Origin: Clostridiaceae bacterium BRH_c20a
Lineage (GTDB): Bacteria; Bacillota; Peptococcia; Peptococcales; BICA1-8
Assembly: GCA_000961765.1 (NCBI GenBank)
Contig: LADT01000040.1
Span: 1-58,845, forward strand
Direction: 5' to 3'
Length of the DNA: 58,845 bases
Part shown: positions 543 through 56,628 of the stretch, in pieces
Layout of the letters: each line of letters begins with the position of its first letter
How positions within the stretch are numbered: position 1 is the first letter of the stretch
Translations under genes and position numbers: made by a program
The notes under the pieces: model-generated
What the model was told of the DNA's origin: nothing
Seen by the model: only the letters and a program-made list of their open reading frames with translations
Database searches by the model: none

Positions 543-1679
543 ATGATAAAATCATGCAAATTAATAACTATTTTCTTACTAATTTGCACACTTTCTTTTA
601 GTTCCGTCCTACCTGTAATAGGCTCTGAACTAGATGATATTTATAATAAGCAGGAACAAATTGATAAAAAAATAAAAGAAACTGAAACCGCCATTAAACA
701 AAAGGAACAGCAAAAACAAAAAACCCTTGCTGAGCTACAATCATTAAATAGTAGCATGGAGAAAACCTATAACGAAATAGAAAAATTAGAAAATCAATTA
801 GTTGTTGCAGAACAATATATAAATGATACACAAAAAGATATAAATTTAAAAGAACAAGACCTGACTGAAAGAACAACAGTATTTGAAAACCGTTTGCGGC
901 AAATATACCAACAAGGTGATATAAATGTCCTAGAAGTTCTATTTCAGTCTACAAGTATTACAGACCTTCTCACAAGATTTGAATTCTTAAAACGACTGGC
1001 TAAAAATGATACTGATTTATTAACCGTTTTGGAAACTGAAAGAGCTACATTAGAAGATAAAAAGGTTGTTTTAGAAAATAAAAAGGCCGACCTGCTTGCC
1101 TTAAAAAACTCTCGAGAGACAAAACACCAACAGCTGCAGATTGCTAGTACACGGCAGAAGGATTTAGTAAAACAAATTGAGTTGCAAAAAGAAACTTATG
1201 AAAAAATGCTGGATGATCTAGAAAAACAATCAAAGGTTGTCGCAGAGGCAATTAGAAGACTGCAATCAGCAGGCGGCCAAAGACCGGGCTGGCTGCAATG
1301 GCCTACTCCAGGTCAGTATCGCATAACCTCTGCATATGGCATGCGGTTCCATCCTATTTTGAAAACGCAAAGATTTCATACAGGGGTTGATATAGCTGCG
1401 CCCTATGGTTCTAATGCCATTGCTTCTGCTAATGGTAAAGTCATTTTTACAGGCTGGCAGGGTGGCTATGGCAACACGATAATAGTTGACCACGGTGGTG
1501 GAATGGCAACTATGTACCCTCATCTATCCAAATACTTAGTAAAAGTAGGCGATAATGTTAAACGAAATGAAGCAATAGGTAAGATAGGTACTTCGGGGTG
1601 GAGTACAGGACCCCATATCCATTTTGAAGTAAGAATTAATGGGGATCATGTTAACCCAATGCCATATTTAAGAAAATAA
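543..1679 (+). CDS. Murein hydrolase activator / M23 peptidase with coiled coil (EnvC/NlpD type)
   Basis: Secreted cell-wall enzyme of 378 aa. Residues 1-28 are a signal peptide (MIKSCKLITIFLLICTLSFS). Residues about 30-240 form a long Glu/Lys/Gln-rich coiled coil. Residues about 260-378 are an M23 (LytM) domain with the zinc ligands in RFHTGVDIAAPYG (HxxxD) and GPHIHFEV (HxH). The coiled coil plus LytM arrangement is that of EnvC-like proteins and clostridial peptidoglycan hydrolases involved in cell separation or sporulation. All metal ligands are present, so an active endopeptidase is more likely than a pure activator. It stands alone and is closed by a strong terminator. Confidence 0.85.
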   Translation: MIKSCKLITIFLLICTLSFSSVLPVIGSELDDIYNKQEQIDKKIKETETAIKQKEQQKQKTLAELQSLNSSMEKTYNEIEKLENQLVVAEQYINDTQKDINLKEQDLTERTTVFENRLRQIYQQGDINVLEVLFQSTSITDLLTRFEFLKRLAKNDTDLLTVLETERATLEDKKVVLENKKADLLALKNSRETKHQQLQIASTRQKDLVKQIELQKETYEKMLDDLEKQSKVVAEAIRRLQSAGGQRPGWLQWPTPGQYRITSAYGMRFHPILKTQRFHTGVDIAAPYGSNAIASANGKVIFTGWQGGYGNTIIVDHGGGMATMYPHLSKYLVKVGDNVKRNEAIGKIGTSGWSTGPHIHFEVRINGDHVNPMPYLRK

Positions 1680-1698
1680 AACGCCGTTGAGGCGTTTT
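1678..1698 (+). terminator. Rho-independent terminator of the M23 gene
   Basis: AAAACGCC-gttga-GGCGTTTT is a perfect 8-bp stem overlapping the stop codon and ending in a T run. Confidence 0.85.
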
Positions 1699-1775
1699 AT
1701 TTATGTAAAATTAGGAAGGGATTTTTAGTTAGATAGAGAAGTAAATAAAAGAAATTTATTTAGGAGGCTCAATAA

Positions 1776-2630
1776 ATGGCATTTGGTACTATATTCAAGC
1801 AAACCCTACTGAGAGTACAAGGGAAAAAACTATCTGTGGAAAACCTGGCTTCCAGCTATGATAGGATTAGTACCAATTATACTAGTATTTTTAACAGCCA
1901 GTATCAAGATAATTATTTTGACTTATTCAAACGATTGGGAGAAGTAAATAATAAAATAATACTAGATTTAGGCTGTGGTACAGCCTGGTTAGGCCAACTA
2001 CTATCCTCAACCTATTCCCCATTACTTTATCATGGTATTGATATTTCTACCGGGATGATTCATGAAGCAAGGAAAACCTTAGCAGAATACTCCAAGGTAA
2101 AGATCGAACATGGAGATTTTCAGGAAATCTTAAAGCAGATACCTGAAGCATCATATGATATTGTTTTTCTAACCTGGTCCCTAAAATTCAATAATATAGA
2201 TAAATTGCTTACTAAGATAATTCGAGTTTTAAAACCTGGTGGAAAATTAGCAATACTTACAGAAACTACTGATAGTGATTTAGAAGTGAATACACCTCTT
2301 CAAAAGTTAATTGCCAATAATATAAATAATGTTGTTCTTGCTCTCCCTAAAACTTATCTGCCTCAAGACTGCCGCCATTTAACATACTTTCTTAATGAGG
2401 CTGGCTTTAAACAAACCATTGTCTGGCAAAAATCAGCAGTACATAATTTTTCCTCTGTAAATCAACTAGCTGCCTGGACAAGAGAAAGCGGTTTGTTGGC
2501 TGCATGGGAGCAAATTATTGATTTTGAGGATATTCAACTAATAAATGAATTTCATACTCTTCTTGGCCAAACATCGCCAGAAAACTTATCAGTCAAAAGG
2601 AAATTTTTAGGATCTATAGCTAGAAAATAG
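1776..2630 (+). CDS. Class I SAM-dependent methyltransferase
   Basis: A 284-aa soluble protein with a Rossmann methyltransferase core. Motif I is ILDLGCGTAWLGQ (about residues 66-78), the acidic ribose-binding loop is GIDIS, and the post-I motif is YDIVFLTWSLKF, followed by RVLKPGGKLAILTE. An AGGAGG site lies 9 nt before the ATG. The C-terminal third (about 190-284) has no recognised domain. The substrate cannot be told from the sequence. It is monocistronic between two terminators and is followed by cobO on the opposite strand. Confidence 0.75.
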   Translation: MAFGTIFKQTLLRVQGKKLSVENLASSYDRISTNYTSIFNSQYQDNYFDLFKRLGEVNNKIILDLGCGTAWLGQLLSSTYSPLLYHGIDISTGMIHEARKTLAEYSKVKIEHGDFQEILKQIPEASYDIVFLTWSLKFNNIDKLLTKIIRVLKPGGKLAILTETTDSDLEVNTPLQKLIANNINNVVLALPKTYLPQDCRHLTYFLNEAGFKQTIVWQKSAVHNFSSVNQLAAWTRESGLLAAWEQIIDFEDIQLINEFHTLLGQTSPENLSVKRKFLGSIARK

Positions 2631-28668: not shown

Positions 28669-28688
28669 ATACTACATCCTTATTTTTT

Positions 28689-28795
28689 CTCCTTTCCAAA
28701 ATGTGGAGGCACAGCCGTTTCCAACCATACCCCGTGAGTACGTTACTCAGTTCTTTATTCCTTAGACTTAACCGTAGGAATAAAGACTCGGAGAA
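28689..28795 (-). promoter_or_regulatory. Moco-family riboswitch (with P3)
   Basis: Read on the minus strand: P1 TCTCC/GGAGA closes the aptamer. P2 is CTTTATTCC/GGAATAAAG. P3 is GAGT-aacgt-ACTC. Then come GGTTGGAAACGGCTGTGCC and TCC, the conserved end of the Moco RNA motif (RF01055). A terminator follows and then mobA, an expected target. Variants with P3 are the ones proposed to sense molybdenum cofactor. Part of the leader lies in the gap after tatA, only 30 nt away. Confidence 0.85.
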
Positions 28796-28825
28796 TCAAA
28801 TTTAGTTTTTTATTTTTTTAGAAAC

Positions 28826-45614: not shown

Positions 45615-45642
45615 TCCAGCATCCTTGTTTAGAGTAGCTGGA
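45615..45642 (-). terminator. Attenuator terminator after the P3-less riboswitch
   Basis: On the minus strand TCCAGC...GCTGGA followed by TTTTT, 13 nt after the aptamer. This is the likely expression platform for the moeA-mog operon. Confidence 0.8.
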
Positions 45643-45654
45643 CATAACTTGATG

Positions 45655-45745
45655 TCTCCTTTCCAAACATGGGAGGCAAAAGCATTTCTACTTTTACCCA
45701 GATCTAAAATCCATAGTCTAGCCCTTAGGATTTTAAATTCGGAGA
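45655..45745 (-). promoter_or_regulatory. Moco-family riboswitch lacking P3 (proposed tungsten-cofactor type)
   Basis: Minus strand: P1 TCTCC/GGAGA, then GA, P2 TAAAATCC/GGATTTTA, then directly GGGTAAAAG...CTTTTGCCTCCC and a GGAAAGGAGA close. It shares the CTCCGA start, the GCCTCC and the GGAAAGGAGA end with the riboswitch at 28689 but has no P3 hairpin. P3-less members of this class have been proposed to sense tungsten cofactor. It heads the moeA-moaA operon, and an AOR-type tungsten enzyme gene is 5 kb away. A false ORF on the minus strand covers this region. Confidence 0.75.
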
Positions 45746-45765
45746 AATATTCAATTTTAAAATAC

Positions 45766-51018: not shown

Positions 51019-52488
51019 TTAAGCCAGGTTCATTTTTTCCAATTCATCAATAACAATTGTTTTTGCTATTTCTGTTACCAATGGGTCAAACTGACTCCCA
51101 TTACATCGTTCTAGCTCATTTATAACAAAAAGAGCATTCTGAGCTGACCGGTATGGTCTTTTTGTCATCATAGCATCAATAGCATCAGCTACACCTATAA
51201 TTTTTGCTAAAAAATCCATCTGTCTCCCTTTAATCCCTTGGGGATATCCAGTACCATCAATTCTTTCATGATGTTCTTCAATAATTCTTTTAATCCGCTC
51301 TAAAAAAGGAATATCACCAATCATATTTGCCCCAATAGTAGGATGGGACTTAATAACCTCAAATTCTAGCGGTGTTAAAAGCCCCGGTTTATAAAGAATA
51401 GCTTCAGGCAACCCAATTTTACCAATATCATGTAAAAGGGCAGCAAATTCTAGCTCTTCTAAGTCCCTAGGGTCCAAACTTAATTTTCTCCCAATTTGCA
51501 GACTAATATCCTTTACTCTTTCACAATGCCCGTGTGTATAAGGGTCTTTTGCATCAATGGCTTTTGCTAGAGCCTTTATTATACTGACATAGGAATTTTT
51601 TAATTCTGTATATGTAGAGGAATTATGTAATACCATGGCAGTAAAATTTCCGAAGAGAACTAAAATATCTGAAATGTTCTCATGATAATCCGACCAGGCA
51701 AAAGGCTTTGTATCCTGAATATCAAAAATCCCTAAAAGCTCACCTTGATAAATAAGAGGAAGGGCAACTTCTGCTTGAGTATCATCTATCTCTTTAATAT
51801 ATCTCGGATCATTTAAGACATCTTCGACAATTATTATCTCCTGATTTAGGGCCGCAATCCCAGTTATACCCTCACCTATTTTAACTTTAGACACTTCTGT
51901 CATATTTTTGTCATATCCATAGCAGCATTTAATTGTTAAATATCCATTTTCAGGCAGTAATATTCTTCCTGTTTTAAAATCTACCAATTTATTTGCCAAC
52001 TCCATAATTCTCGGTAGAACTTGCTCTAAGTCCCAGGAAGAAGCAATCAATTGACTAGCTTCAAAAAGTATTGCAAATTTTTCTCTTTCTTGTGATACTT
52101 TCTCTTGTGCATTTTGTAATTTTAAATTTTGCTCCAACAATTTATTTGATAACTCAGTTGTTTCTTTCAACATTTTTTGAATCTCTTTACGTTGCTTTAT
52201 CAGATTATTGGTAAAAAGCTTTAGTTCCTGCATATGTTGCTTAGTGTTTTCTTCTAATAAGGCTTCATTTCTAATAAAAATTTGAAAGGTCATAAATAAT
52301 CTTAAAAATAAGTACAGGGAGACGCCCAAGTAAAAAAGTAAAAATATCAGCTGATGATAAATAAAATCACTGCTTTTAAAGAGGATTAAATTTATCACTA
52401 CAAAAGCTATTGTTAGTAACACCATGGCAATTATTAATCTGGTGAAATGGATTTTAGCTTTCTTAGATTGCTGATTTCTCTCTTCCAT
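51019..52488 (-). CDS. Membrane HD-GYP domain protein with GAF sensor
   Basis: A 489-aa protein. Two membrane helices at about 15-70, a coiled coil about 75-140, a GAF domain about 145-285, and an HD-GYP domain about 295-480. The catalytic motifs are intact: AALLHDIGKIGLPEAIL (HD) and EEHHERIDGTGYPQGIKG (HHExxDGTGYP). HD-GYP proteins degrade cyclic di-GMP to pGpG or GMP. This gives a c-di-GMP turnover enzyme 3 kb from a c-di-GMP riboswitch. GGGAG precedes the ATG. Confidence 0.9.
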   Translation of the reverse strand: MEERNQQSKKAKIHFTRLIIAMVLLTIAFVVINLILFKSSDFIYHQLIFLLFYLGVSLYLFLRLFMTFQIFIRNEALLEENTKQHMQELKLFTNNLIKQRKEIQKMLKETTELSNKLLEQNLKLQNAQEKVSQEREKFAILFEASQLIASSWDLEQVLPRIMELANKLVDFKTGRILLPENGYLTIKCCYGYDKNMTEVSKVKIGEGITGIAALNQEIIIVEDVLNDPRYIKEIDDTQAEVALPLIYQGELLGIFDIQDTKPFAWSDYHENISDILVLFGNFTAMVLHNSSTYTELKNSYVSIIKALAKAIDAKDPYTHGHCERVKDISLQIGRKLSLDPRDLEELEFAALLHDIGKIGLPEAILYKPGLLTPLEFEVIKSHPTIGANMIGDIPFLERIKRIIEEHHERIDGTGYPQGIKGRQMDFLAKIIGVADAIDAMMTKRPYRSAQNALFVINELERCNGSQFDPLVTEIAKTIVIDELEKMNLA

Positions 52489-54425: not shown

Positions 54426-54576
54426 TTGGAATACCTCCACAAAAGTTTTTTAATCTACTACACACTGACATTTCCACATAAACTCAGGATATTATAAAGC
54501 GATCCCTAAAACCATATGCTTTAATATAGATTTATTGTATATTTATATTATCATGAATATACAGGAGATTAAAATT

Positions 54577-55440
54577 ATGGAAAAAGAAAAACTAGGTTTT
54601 TTAGTAACACTAATTTCTGCAGCAGGTTTCGGTTCAATGGCTATTTTTGCAAAAATAGCTTATAGCTATGGCCTGAATATAACTACTATCTTAGTCTTTA
54701 GATTTTGTATAGCAGTACTGATCCTATGGCTTTACATATGGTTTAAAAAGGAATATGTACCCGTGGAAAGAAAAACACTTTGGAAATTAATATTAGTTGG
54801 CACATTAGGTTATGGCCTAGTTTCGGTGTTTTATTTTAATTCTGTTAAGTTTGCATCAGCTTCACTGGCAGGTATCCTTTTATATTTACACCCCCTTTTA
54901 GTCTATTTAGTACTAATATTTTTAAAAAGGGATTTCTTTGCATGGAACAAGGCAGCTGCCTTAGTAGTATCTTTCTTGGGACTGTTGTTTGTATTGGGTT
55001 CATCTTTTAGTATAACTAATTATTTAGGACTTCTGGCAGGTTTGGGCTCTGCTTTTGCATATACATTCTATATTGTAGCAGGTGATAAAGTTATTAGAGA
55101 AATGAAACCTATACAAGGAACTGCTATTGTTATTACATCTTCAGCAGTTGCATATCTGATTTTTGGTTTATTGAGCCAAAATATCATCTTGCCAGAACAA
55201 AACATTGCCTACCTTTGGATGACAATAATTGCAGTATTTTCAACTGTAATTGCCATAGCACTATTCTGGGTAGGGGTATCCCTAATTGGCCCCACCAATG
55301 CTTCTATAGTTAGCACGTTTGAACCCTTTGTAACAGTGATTTTAGCCTTTGTATTTATAGGCGAAAAATTAACAACCTTTCAAAGCTTTGGTGGATTACT
55401 AATTATTGGTGGTGTTGTAATTTTAAAAAGTGTGAAATAA
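54577..55440 (+). CDS. EamA/DMT-family transporter
   Basis: A 287-aa membrane protein with ten helices in two EamA repeats: AGFGSMAIFAKIAYSYGLNI in the first and LGLLAGLGSAFAYTFYIVAG in the second, ending with IGEKLTTFQSFGGLLIIGGV. It is a metabolite exporter of unknown substrate. The ATG at 54577 has GGAG 9 nt upstream; earlier starts lack a site. Confidence 0.88.
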   Translation: MEKEKLGFLVTLISAAGFGSMAIFAKIAYSYGLNITTILVFRFCIAVLILWLYIWFKKEYVPVERKTLWKLILVGTLGYGLVSVFYFNSVKFASASLAGILLYLHPLLVYLVLIFLKRDFFAWNKAAALVVSFLGLLFVLGSSFSITNYLGLLAGLGSAFAYTFYIVAGDKVIREMKPIQGTAIVITSSAVAYLIFGLLSQNIILPEQNIAYLWMTIIAVFSTVIAIALFWVGVSLIGPTNASIVSTFEPFVTVILAFVFIGEKLTTFQSFGGLLIIGGVVILKSVK

Positions 55441-55493
55441 ACTTTAAGATATTTATTGATATTTCAGCTCTATGTAATTATAATACAGCCTAA

Positions 55494-55519
55494 AAAATCG
55501 CCTTTTTAAGGGCGATTTT
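55494..55519 (+). terminator. Terminator of the DMT transporter gene
   Basis: AAAATCGCC-tttttaag-GGCGATTTT, 9-bp stem with T residues. Confidence 0.88.
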
Positions 55520-55574
55520 ATTAACTAAAATTATTTTAACAGAAACTGCTTCTTTTGTTCAAACTCCTCATCAC

Positions 55575-55736
55575 CTAAATAGTTCTTTGCTTTCGTTCTT
55601 TTAAATATCTTAATATAAGTTCATCCAGTTCTCTGCTCCTTTGTATTGCTTCTTCATAATTAGCTTTCTTGTTTAGTAGCATTTTCTCAATTTGTATTTT
55701 TTCAGTATGAATTTTATAAGCAAATAATGGATCCAT
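55575..55736 (-). CDS. Spo0E-like sporulation regulatory phosphatase
   Basis: A 53-aa protein in the 55441-56133 gap: a short two-helix protein with IEKMLLNKKANYEEAIQ and the signature SRELDELILRYL (SxxLDxLI). Spo0E-family phosphatases remove phosphate from Spo0A~P and so hold back sporulation. The ATG at 55736 has GGAGG 6 nt upstream. It is the only gene behind the cyclic di-GMP riboswitch and terminator at 55773-55897. Family assignment rests on size and motif. Confidence 0.7.
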   Translation of the reverse strand: MDPLFAYKIHTEKIQIEKMLLNKKANYEEAIQRSRELDELILRYLKERKQRTI

Positions 55737-55772
55737 TGAAATCCTCCATAGTTATTATTAAAAAAATGAAAA

Positions 55773-55794
55773 GGCAGTCTAATACAAGACTGCC
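55773..55794 (-). terminator. Terminator between the c-di-GMP riboswitch and the spo0E-like gene
   Basis: GGCAGTCT-aataca-AGACTGCC; on the minus strand followed by TTTTCATTTTTTT. It lies 20 nt after the aptamer core, so it is the probable expression platform. Confidence 0.85.
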
Positions 55795-55808
55795 AAAAAT
55801 AACAATTA

Positions 55809-55897
55809 TGCTTGGCAACCTGGCAATCATAGCTTTCGCTTTAGACCCATAGCTTTGCGTCCCACCCTTTCAGATGGTTTGCCTTTATCTGCTGTTT
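55809..55897 (-). promoter_or_regulatory. Cyclic di-GMP-I (GEMM) riboswitch
   Basis: Minus strand: GGCAAACC, ATC-TGAAA-GGGTGG, GACGCAAAGC, then GGTCTAAAGC-GAAA-GC and GCCAGGTTGCC. These are the conserved blocks of the GEMM-I aptamer (GCAAACC, GGGACGCAAAGC and the tetraloop/receptor stems). It precedes a terminator and the spo0E-like gene by about 75 nt. Confidence 0.88.
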
Positions 55898-56062
55898 TTG
55901 GAAACATAATTATTATATATGATTTTTTTGATAATCTGTGTCGAAATTTGTAAGTTAAAATTTTTTAGAGTTTATTGTATTCGAAGTTTTTGTTCTGGTA
56001 ATTTTATCGTTCACTATACTATTAAGCACATTCATCTAGTATGCTTACACAAAAAAAAAGCT

Positions 56063-56104
56063 TTGACCAACTGCCTATCATAGGATATAATGCTGTCATG
56101 ACAG
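56063..56104 (+). promoter_or_regulatory. Promoter and palindromic operator of the ECF S-component gene
   Basis: TTGACC (56063-56068), 17 nt, TATAAT (56086-56091), then the perfect palindrome CTGTCATGACAG (56093-56104) over the start point. The TGTC-NN-GACA core is like that of the niacin repressor NiaR as I recall it. This would fit a niacin-type S component. Confidence 0.65.
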
Positions 56105-56133
56105 ATGTAAAGACAGTAAGGAGGAGTTGTTTT

Positions 56134-56628
56134 ATGAAAATTAGAGACCTTGTTTTAGGGGCATTATTAACAGCGTTAGCTCTAATGATTCCATTGGCTT
56201 TTGGCGGTTTTTTGGGGGTTACCATCCCACCCTTTAGTGCAACACTAGCCTCCCATGTTCCTGTTATGTTGGCGATGACAGTAAATCCTTTAGTTGCTTT
56301 TGTTGTAGGTGCAGGATCAGCTTTTGGGTTTTTAATTAAATTGGGACCTGTTATTGGTGCCAGAGCTTTTATGCACACTATTTTCGCAGTCATCGGGGCA
56401 ATACTGATTAAGAAGGGCTATGGTTTACGAAATGCCTTATTCTTGACCTTACCCATCCATGCTGTGAGCGAAGCCTTGATTGTTATTCCTTTTGGCTTTT
56501 CCTTATATAAAGCAGGAGTTGTCATTGGCATCGGTACAGCCCTCCATCATGGAGTAGATGCAATTATTACTTTAGCAGTTTATGGATTACTTACAGCCAG
56601 CGCAGGATTCACATTAAGGAAGAATTAA
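56134..56628 (+). CDS. ECF transporter S component (possibly niacin type)
   Basis: A 164-aa membrane protein with about five or six helices: KIRDLVLGALLTALALMIPL at the start, then SATLASHVPVMLAMTVNPLV, GSAFGFLIKLGPVIGARAFM and ALHHGVDAIITLAVYGLL. These match vitamin-specific S subunits of energy-coupling factor transporters, which dock to a shared AT module encoded elsewhere. AAGGAGGAG precedes the ATG at 56134; the in-frame ATG at 56041 is upstream of the promoter. Substrate is uncertain. Confidence 0.75.
   Translation: MKIRDLVLGALLTALALMIPLAFGGFLGVTIPPFSATLASHVPVMLAMTVNPLVAFVVGAGSAFGFLIKLGPVIGARAFMHTIFAVIGAILIKKGYGLRNALFLTLPIHAVSEALIVIPFGFSLYKAGVVIGIGTALHHGVDAIITLAVYGLLTASAGFTLRKN

Follow-up and report, generated by a model that had tools for sequence, protein, structure and literature searches.

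A candidate c-di-GMP-I riboswitch upstream of a small Spo0E-like gene in Clostridiaceae bacterium BRH_c20a

Results

A c-di-GMP-I (GEMM-I) riboswitch aptamer stands directly in front of a gene for a 53-aa Spo0E-like protein in Clostridiaceae bacterium BRH_c20a. The stretch of 58,845 nucleotides that was analysed (the window) is the entire contig C76; the genome comprises 4.5 Mb in 92 contigs. On its minus strand we found, in this order, a 0A box with a TATAAT element, the aptamer, a terminator, a ribosome-binding site and the 53-aa ORF. We consider it likely, with a probability of about 0.72, that transcription of a small Spo0E-type phosphatase gene is here under a c-di-GMP-I riboswitch acting as an OFF switch. 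The features on which this proposal is built can be read in the DNA, namely the aptamer, the terminator, a pairing that competes with it, an ORF under selection, the SxxxD signature, the 0A box and the recurrence of the arrangement; an effect on sporulation would be their predicted consequence. The assignment of a c-di-GMP-I riboswitch controlling a Spo0E-type gene was supported by every sequence test that we ran, and the sequences make a strong case that a riboswitch of known class has a new target here, and that the combination recurs in lineages separate from each other. A riboswitch directly before the gene of a Spo0A phosphatase would be the shortest possible wire from c-di-GMP to sporulation, and would link the biofilm and motility messenger to the spore decision.

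Organization of the locus

The aptamer (55893-55811, minus strand) scored 79.8 bits with the RF01051 covariance model, for which the gathering threshold is 35 bits (E 4.2e-14 for the window), and covered the model over its full length, positions 1-87. It is thereby a member of the family and is predicted to bind c-di-GMP. An intrinsic terminator stem-loop with its T tract (55794-55773) and the ORF (55736-55575) follow on the same strand. Aptamer and ORF have no other gene between them, and these coordinates bear out the claim of the first-pass annotation that aptamer, terminator and small gene are consecutive. Because the downstream neighbour, an EamA gene (54535-55440), is on the opposite strand and nothing intervenes, the unit is monocistronic and the 53-aa ORF is the sole gene that the leader can control. 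The HD-GYP gene that had been pointed out 3 kb away does exist (51019-52488, minus strand, with GAF and HD_5 domains), but it belongs to a unit separate from the aptamer cassette and is no evidence by itself. The contig also carries two Moco/tungsten riboswitches (RF01055, minus strand), at 28673-28805 and 45640-45756, with 82.9 and 72.6 bits.

The Spo0E-like protein

The ORF has a GGAGG ribosome-binding site six bases 5' of its ATG. Its product scored 20.4 bits with PF09388 (E 5.1e-4), under the curated cut-off of 23, and none of the NCBIfam profiles matched it; we file it as Spo0E-like, short of a confirmed PF09388 member. Because of this low score, the SxxxD motif, a paralogue, dN/dS and the predicted fold were examined. 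SxxxD is the signature motif of Spo0E proteins (PMC11115286), and the window protein carries it as S34-R-E-L-D38 (SRELD), with S, L and D invariant across seven aligned proteins, the window's and six other Spo0E. AlphaFold2 predicted an antiparallel two-helix hairpin with helices at 3-21 and 27-51 (pLDDT 92.3). The best TM-score in Foldseek was to 2c0s, an aspartyl-phosphate phosphatase of B. anthracis (TM 0.73, E 2.9, not significant), which is only consistent with this kind of fold and does not establish homology. In its length, hairpin and SxxxD the window protein resembles the Spo0E-type phosphatases (PF09388), such as Spo0E and YnzD, which are about 53 aa long. YisI is another aspartyl-phosphate phosphatase of this type. 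Spo0E of C. difficile has the same length as the window protein, 53 aa (PMC11115286).

The nearest relative of the window ORF is a paralogue in the same genome, on contig C65, with 56% identity. Over 50 codons the two gave a dS of 1.39 and a dN of 0.28 (dN/dS about 0.2), with changes at the codon positions of 16/8/22, indicating that the protein is under purifying selection. The paralogue also scored low with PF09388 (only 12.2 bits), and the two therefore represent a divergent branch; the window's protein is the most divergent of the genome's eight, the seven others matching better. When a peptide pattern made from both paralogues was scanned against 84,980 genomes, none of the 49 pattern matches was confirmed, which suggests that the sub-family is restricted to this species. 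The earlier description of the gene as Spo0E-type is thus upheld by motif, hairpin and selection, but weakened by the divergence and by the profile results. We predict that the protein acts as a phosphatase on Spo0A~P.

A probable second cassette on contigs C29 and C65

The genome contains 13 RF01051 aptamers, 20 GGDEF hits and 8 Pfam Spo0E hits, and encodes Spo0A (C65:46631-46942, 154.7 bits). On contig C29 we found an aptamer (83.6 bits) and a terminator that both resemble those of the window. A group II intron (RF02001, 63.3 bits) starts in the T tract of that terminator, and the contig ends within the intron. Contig C65 in turn starts with a T-rich stretch and a ribosome-binding site, followed by the spo0E-like paralogue. 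We infer that the two contigs join into one second cassette, probably split by the intron and unbridged in the assembly. None of the seven remaining Spo0E loci of the genome has an aptamer, and neither have two weak homologues in G001 and G078.

The intron itself was present in two copies (C29:1-530, locus L026; C71, from about 1495, locus L035), each directly 3' of a terminator stem. A large serine recombinase-like gene, identified by eye (L026, from 880, plus strand), starts about 245 bases 5' of the C29 aptamer, so that the second cassette may be flanked by a mobile element on this contig.

Promoter and Spo0A box

Upstream of the aptamer there is a perfect -10 element, TATAAT (55912-55917, minus strand), which would place the transcription start near 55905; by eye, the window promoter lacks a good -35 hexamer at a distance of 17 bases. 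An exact TGTCGAA (55939-55945, plus strand; TTCGACA on the transcribed strand), the core motif of the 0A box (PMC3485338), was found 21 bases upstream of the TATAAT. The paralogous C29 aptamer has the same arrangement of 0A core and TATAAT, and these two are the only ones of the 13 aptamers in the genome with a 0A core within 150 bases upstream. The spo0A gene of the genome also has a 0A core, TTTTTGTCGAAATTG, about 47 bases 5' of its ATG. In Spo0A-activated promoters such as spoIIG the spacing is about 22 bp.

By itself, the core is at least as frequent in the window as expected by chance (3 against 2.5), and it occurs 10 times in 128,542 bases of the genome, or about 0.01 times per 150 bases. 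The case for a 0A box rests on its position and on the cores of both cassettes and of spo0A, the two cassettes being paralogues and their boxes not independent. Genome-wide, the promoter pattern TCGACA-N19-22-TATAAT was not enriched, with three matches against 13 in a reversed control; the third match, on C51, was rejected, having no clear target downstream. Upstream of the cassettes of other genomes described below (G083 and the HD-GYP::Spo0E fusions), no 0A core was seen by eye. From the promoter sequence, Spo0A~P probably also regulates the window's spo0E-like gene as a feedback. We expect activation, and hence negative feedback, repression being possible.

Expression platform and sign of the switch

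The terminator consists of GGCAGTCT-TGTATT-AGACTGCC and a T tract, and was the one terminator-like site found in 55400-56200, against 0.2 expected. The expression platform (55773-55822, minus strand) reaches from the aptamer into this terminator. In it, the 3' strand of the aptamer closing stem, AGGUUGCCAAG, can form 11 pairs with the terminator 5' arm, UUUGGCAGUCU, giving an antiterminator that is mutually exclusive with the terminator in the thermodynamic model. When the leader was folded up to the terminator 5' arm, the MFE was -32.2 kcal/mol, compared with -25.1 kcal/mol with the arm unpaired. The antiterminator duplex of the window had -10.2 kcal/mol, a value matched by 4 of 2000 arm shuffles; the C29 leader gave -10.6 kcal/mol, matched by 52 of 2000. 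Pairings of this kind with the aptamer 3' strand were found in C29, in both G083 leaders and in two fusion leaders, and the two fusion leaders retained the antiterminator even in the full-length fold.

Since the terminator 5' arm pairs with the aptamer closing strand, a transcriptional OFF switch is predicted. In the energy model, the full-length window leader including the terminator (-39.4 kcal/mol) folds into aptamer and terminator even without ligand. This counts against the OFF explanation, and the sign thus depends on co-transcriptional logic.

Recurrence in other genomes

A search for GEMM-I aptamers next to PF09388 genes, proposed along with the first-pass annotation, found the pairing again in the same genome, in a genome of another family (G083) and before HD-GYP::Spo0E fusion genes, and this recurrence argues that the window's aptamer is not a chance neighbour. 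G083 has two tandem cassettes, each with aptamer, terminator and Spo0E. Their aptamers scored 59.7 and 58.5 bits, and their proteins 45.2 and 44.6 bits with PF09388, over the Pfam cut-off. Because these Spo0E proteins are canonical (SQELD), the doubt about the window ORF does not apply to them.

Within the class of the window, 46 genomes were surveyed, with the aptamer in 24 and Spo0E in 26. Three Spo0E hits (the window, G037 and G044; by eye) had a same-strand aptamer within 600 nt upstream, where chance would give 0.020 (Poisson P 1.4e-6), G037 and G044 being of the same genus and hence not independent of each other. Each of these two genomes has tandem aptamers upstream of a disrupted gene that retains remnants of HD-GYP and a Spo0E tail. 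The tail, searched in 197 relatives of G037, gave seven matches. Intact HD-GYP::Spo0E fusions with an upstream aptamer were found in G153, G154 and G118 (RF01051 41.5 bits; RF03167 72.1 and 71.8 bits), with PF09388 scores of 30.9-31.4 bits, while G130 has an aptamer with a relic of the fusion gene and G079 (L051) a fusion without aptamer. The aptamer is thus upstream of the fusion in six of seven genomes, some of the genes being broken. The fusion tails are 77-94% identical across families (45% for the G130 relic), and for this reason we counted these loci as one spread lineage and not as independent events. At the fusion loci, the HD-GYP part could be enough to account for the riboswitch.

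The fusions at L047, L048, L049, L051, L036 and L037 are 238-262 aa long, with decay in L036 and L037. At several fusion loci a HATPase_c gene follows, and then, by eye, STAS- and PP2C-like genes, in what looks like an operon that connects c-di-GMP and Spo0E with partner switching.

Across the phylum, PF09388 occurs in 244 of 398 genomes and RF01051 in 298 of 398, and the pairing is rare. Outside the window's class, a same-strand aptamer was found at one of 140 sampled Spo0E genes (that of G083), the sample being 80 plus 60 of the matches listed for PF09388 with up to 1 kb upstream (L091, L099 and L171 short; entries from the window's class and a few that overlapped excluded) and made up of the best-scoring Spo0E proteins, so that divergent ones like the window's are under-sampled. 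The spo0E gene at L162 (G048:C38) has a c-di-GMP-I aptamer of 46.6 bits no more than 1 kb away, but the two are on opposite strands and the case was excluded from the count. A pattern of the aptamer core, 180-240 nt and codons for E/K-L-D-x-L-I/V gave two hits in 84,980 genomes, both real aptamers with no Spo0E frame, which we rejected as chance; the same pattern gave none in viral contigs. This pattern is strict, and its outcome is no general negative.

Discussion

We propose that, at low c-di-GMP, the 3' strand of the closing stem would pair with the terminator 5' arm and form the antiterminator, RNA polymerase would read through, and the Spo0E produced would dephosphorylate Spo0A~P and hold sporulation back. 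At high c-di-GMP the closing stem would be held, freeing the arm, so that the terminator would form and transcription stop; with Spo0E off, Spo0A~P would accumulate.

The riboswitch might also control a Spo0E-like protein whose main partner is another response regulator or a motility regulator, in a motility or biofilm circuit. C. difficile Spo0E represses sporulation and binds both Spo0A and RstA, and it alters motility; motility is also impaired in a spo0E mutant of B. subtilis (PMC11115286). The genome also has seven better-matching Spo0E proteins, the window's being the most divergent. We nevertheless hold this alternative to be somewhat unlikely, since SxxxD and the two-helix hairpin are kept in the window protein and the promoter's 0A box suggests a link to Spo0A. 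A decidedly less probable alternative is an ON switch, by which c-di-GMP would raise Spo0E and block sporulation. It would fit C. difficile, where c-di-GMP lowers sporulation by a route reported in 2021 as unknown (PMC8653836), but the pairing logic suggests OFF in six folded leaders, and OFF control of transcription is what is reported for the class I riboswitches of C. difficile (PMC11477304).

The aptamer could finally be a stray one that does not control the ORF, or the ORF a relic no longer made, as its small size and divergence and the decayed fusion genes of G037, G044 and G130 would allow. The duplicate cassette in the same genome, the separate duplicates in G083, the dN/dS of about 0.2 and the 0.02 pairs expected by chance make this very improbable. 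The OFF switch for a Spo0E-type phosphatase acting on Spo0A~P is thus the reading that we prefer. More tentatively, at somewhat under even odds, it may be one instance of a circuit that evolved repeatedly among anaerobic endospore formers (two origins with stand-alone spo0E, both in duplicate; one with the HD-GYP::Spo0E fusion, which then spread) and couples c-di-GMP positively to Spo0A~P. In the window's species the Spo0A box of the promoter would close the loop, and high c-di-GMP (biofilm) would license sporulation whereas low c-di-GMP (motility) would veto it. The predicted sign, with high c-di-GMP favouring sporulation, is opposite to that of C. difficile.

Streptomyces forms exospores, has no Spo0A, and uses the protein effectors BldD and WhiG, with no riboswitch. 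In PMC8653836, Streptomyces is named as the only case known by then in which c-di-GMP acts directly on a sporulation programme. The same paper states that no riboswitch appears to affect sporulation genes in C. difficile. The C. difficile c-di-GMP-I riboswitches, for example the one before the early flagellar operon, share aptamer class and transcription terminator with the cassette in the window, and have the OFF logic that is predicted for it. Their targets listed in the accessible part of PMC11477304 are flagella, an adhesin, a protease, small unknown proteins and antitoxin RNAs, with no Spo0E, unlike the window. The first-pass annotation knew of no described riboswitch with a Spo0E target, in agreement with the open-access full text searched (including the available parts of PMC10210984, PMC5640608 and PMC11477304), where we found no c-di-GMP riboswitch with such a target. 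A metabolite riboswitch on a spo0E-type gene was likewise not described in the literature searched, a sigma-B promoter being cited for B. subtilis (PMC10210984).

Two further arrangements were observed in the genome. At L027 (G000:C81:258500-263000; 1222-2499, minus strand) a spo0E gene (PF09388 46.7 bits) lies 12 bases before a same-strand gene for a PAS-GGDEF diguanylate cyclase, a second and different link between Spo0E and c-di-GMP. Another duplicated unit of aptamer and small gene occurs at L003 and L004 (contigs C46 and C36), where similar aptamers stand upstream of two 62-aa ORFs that are nearly identical.
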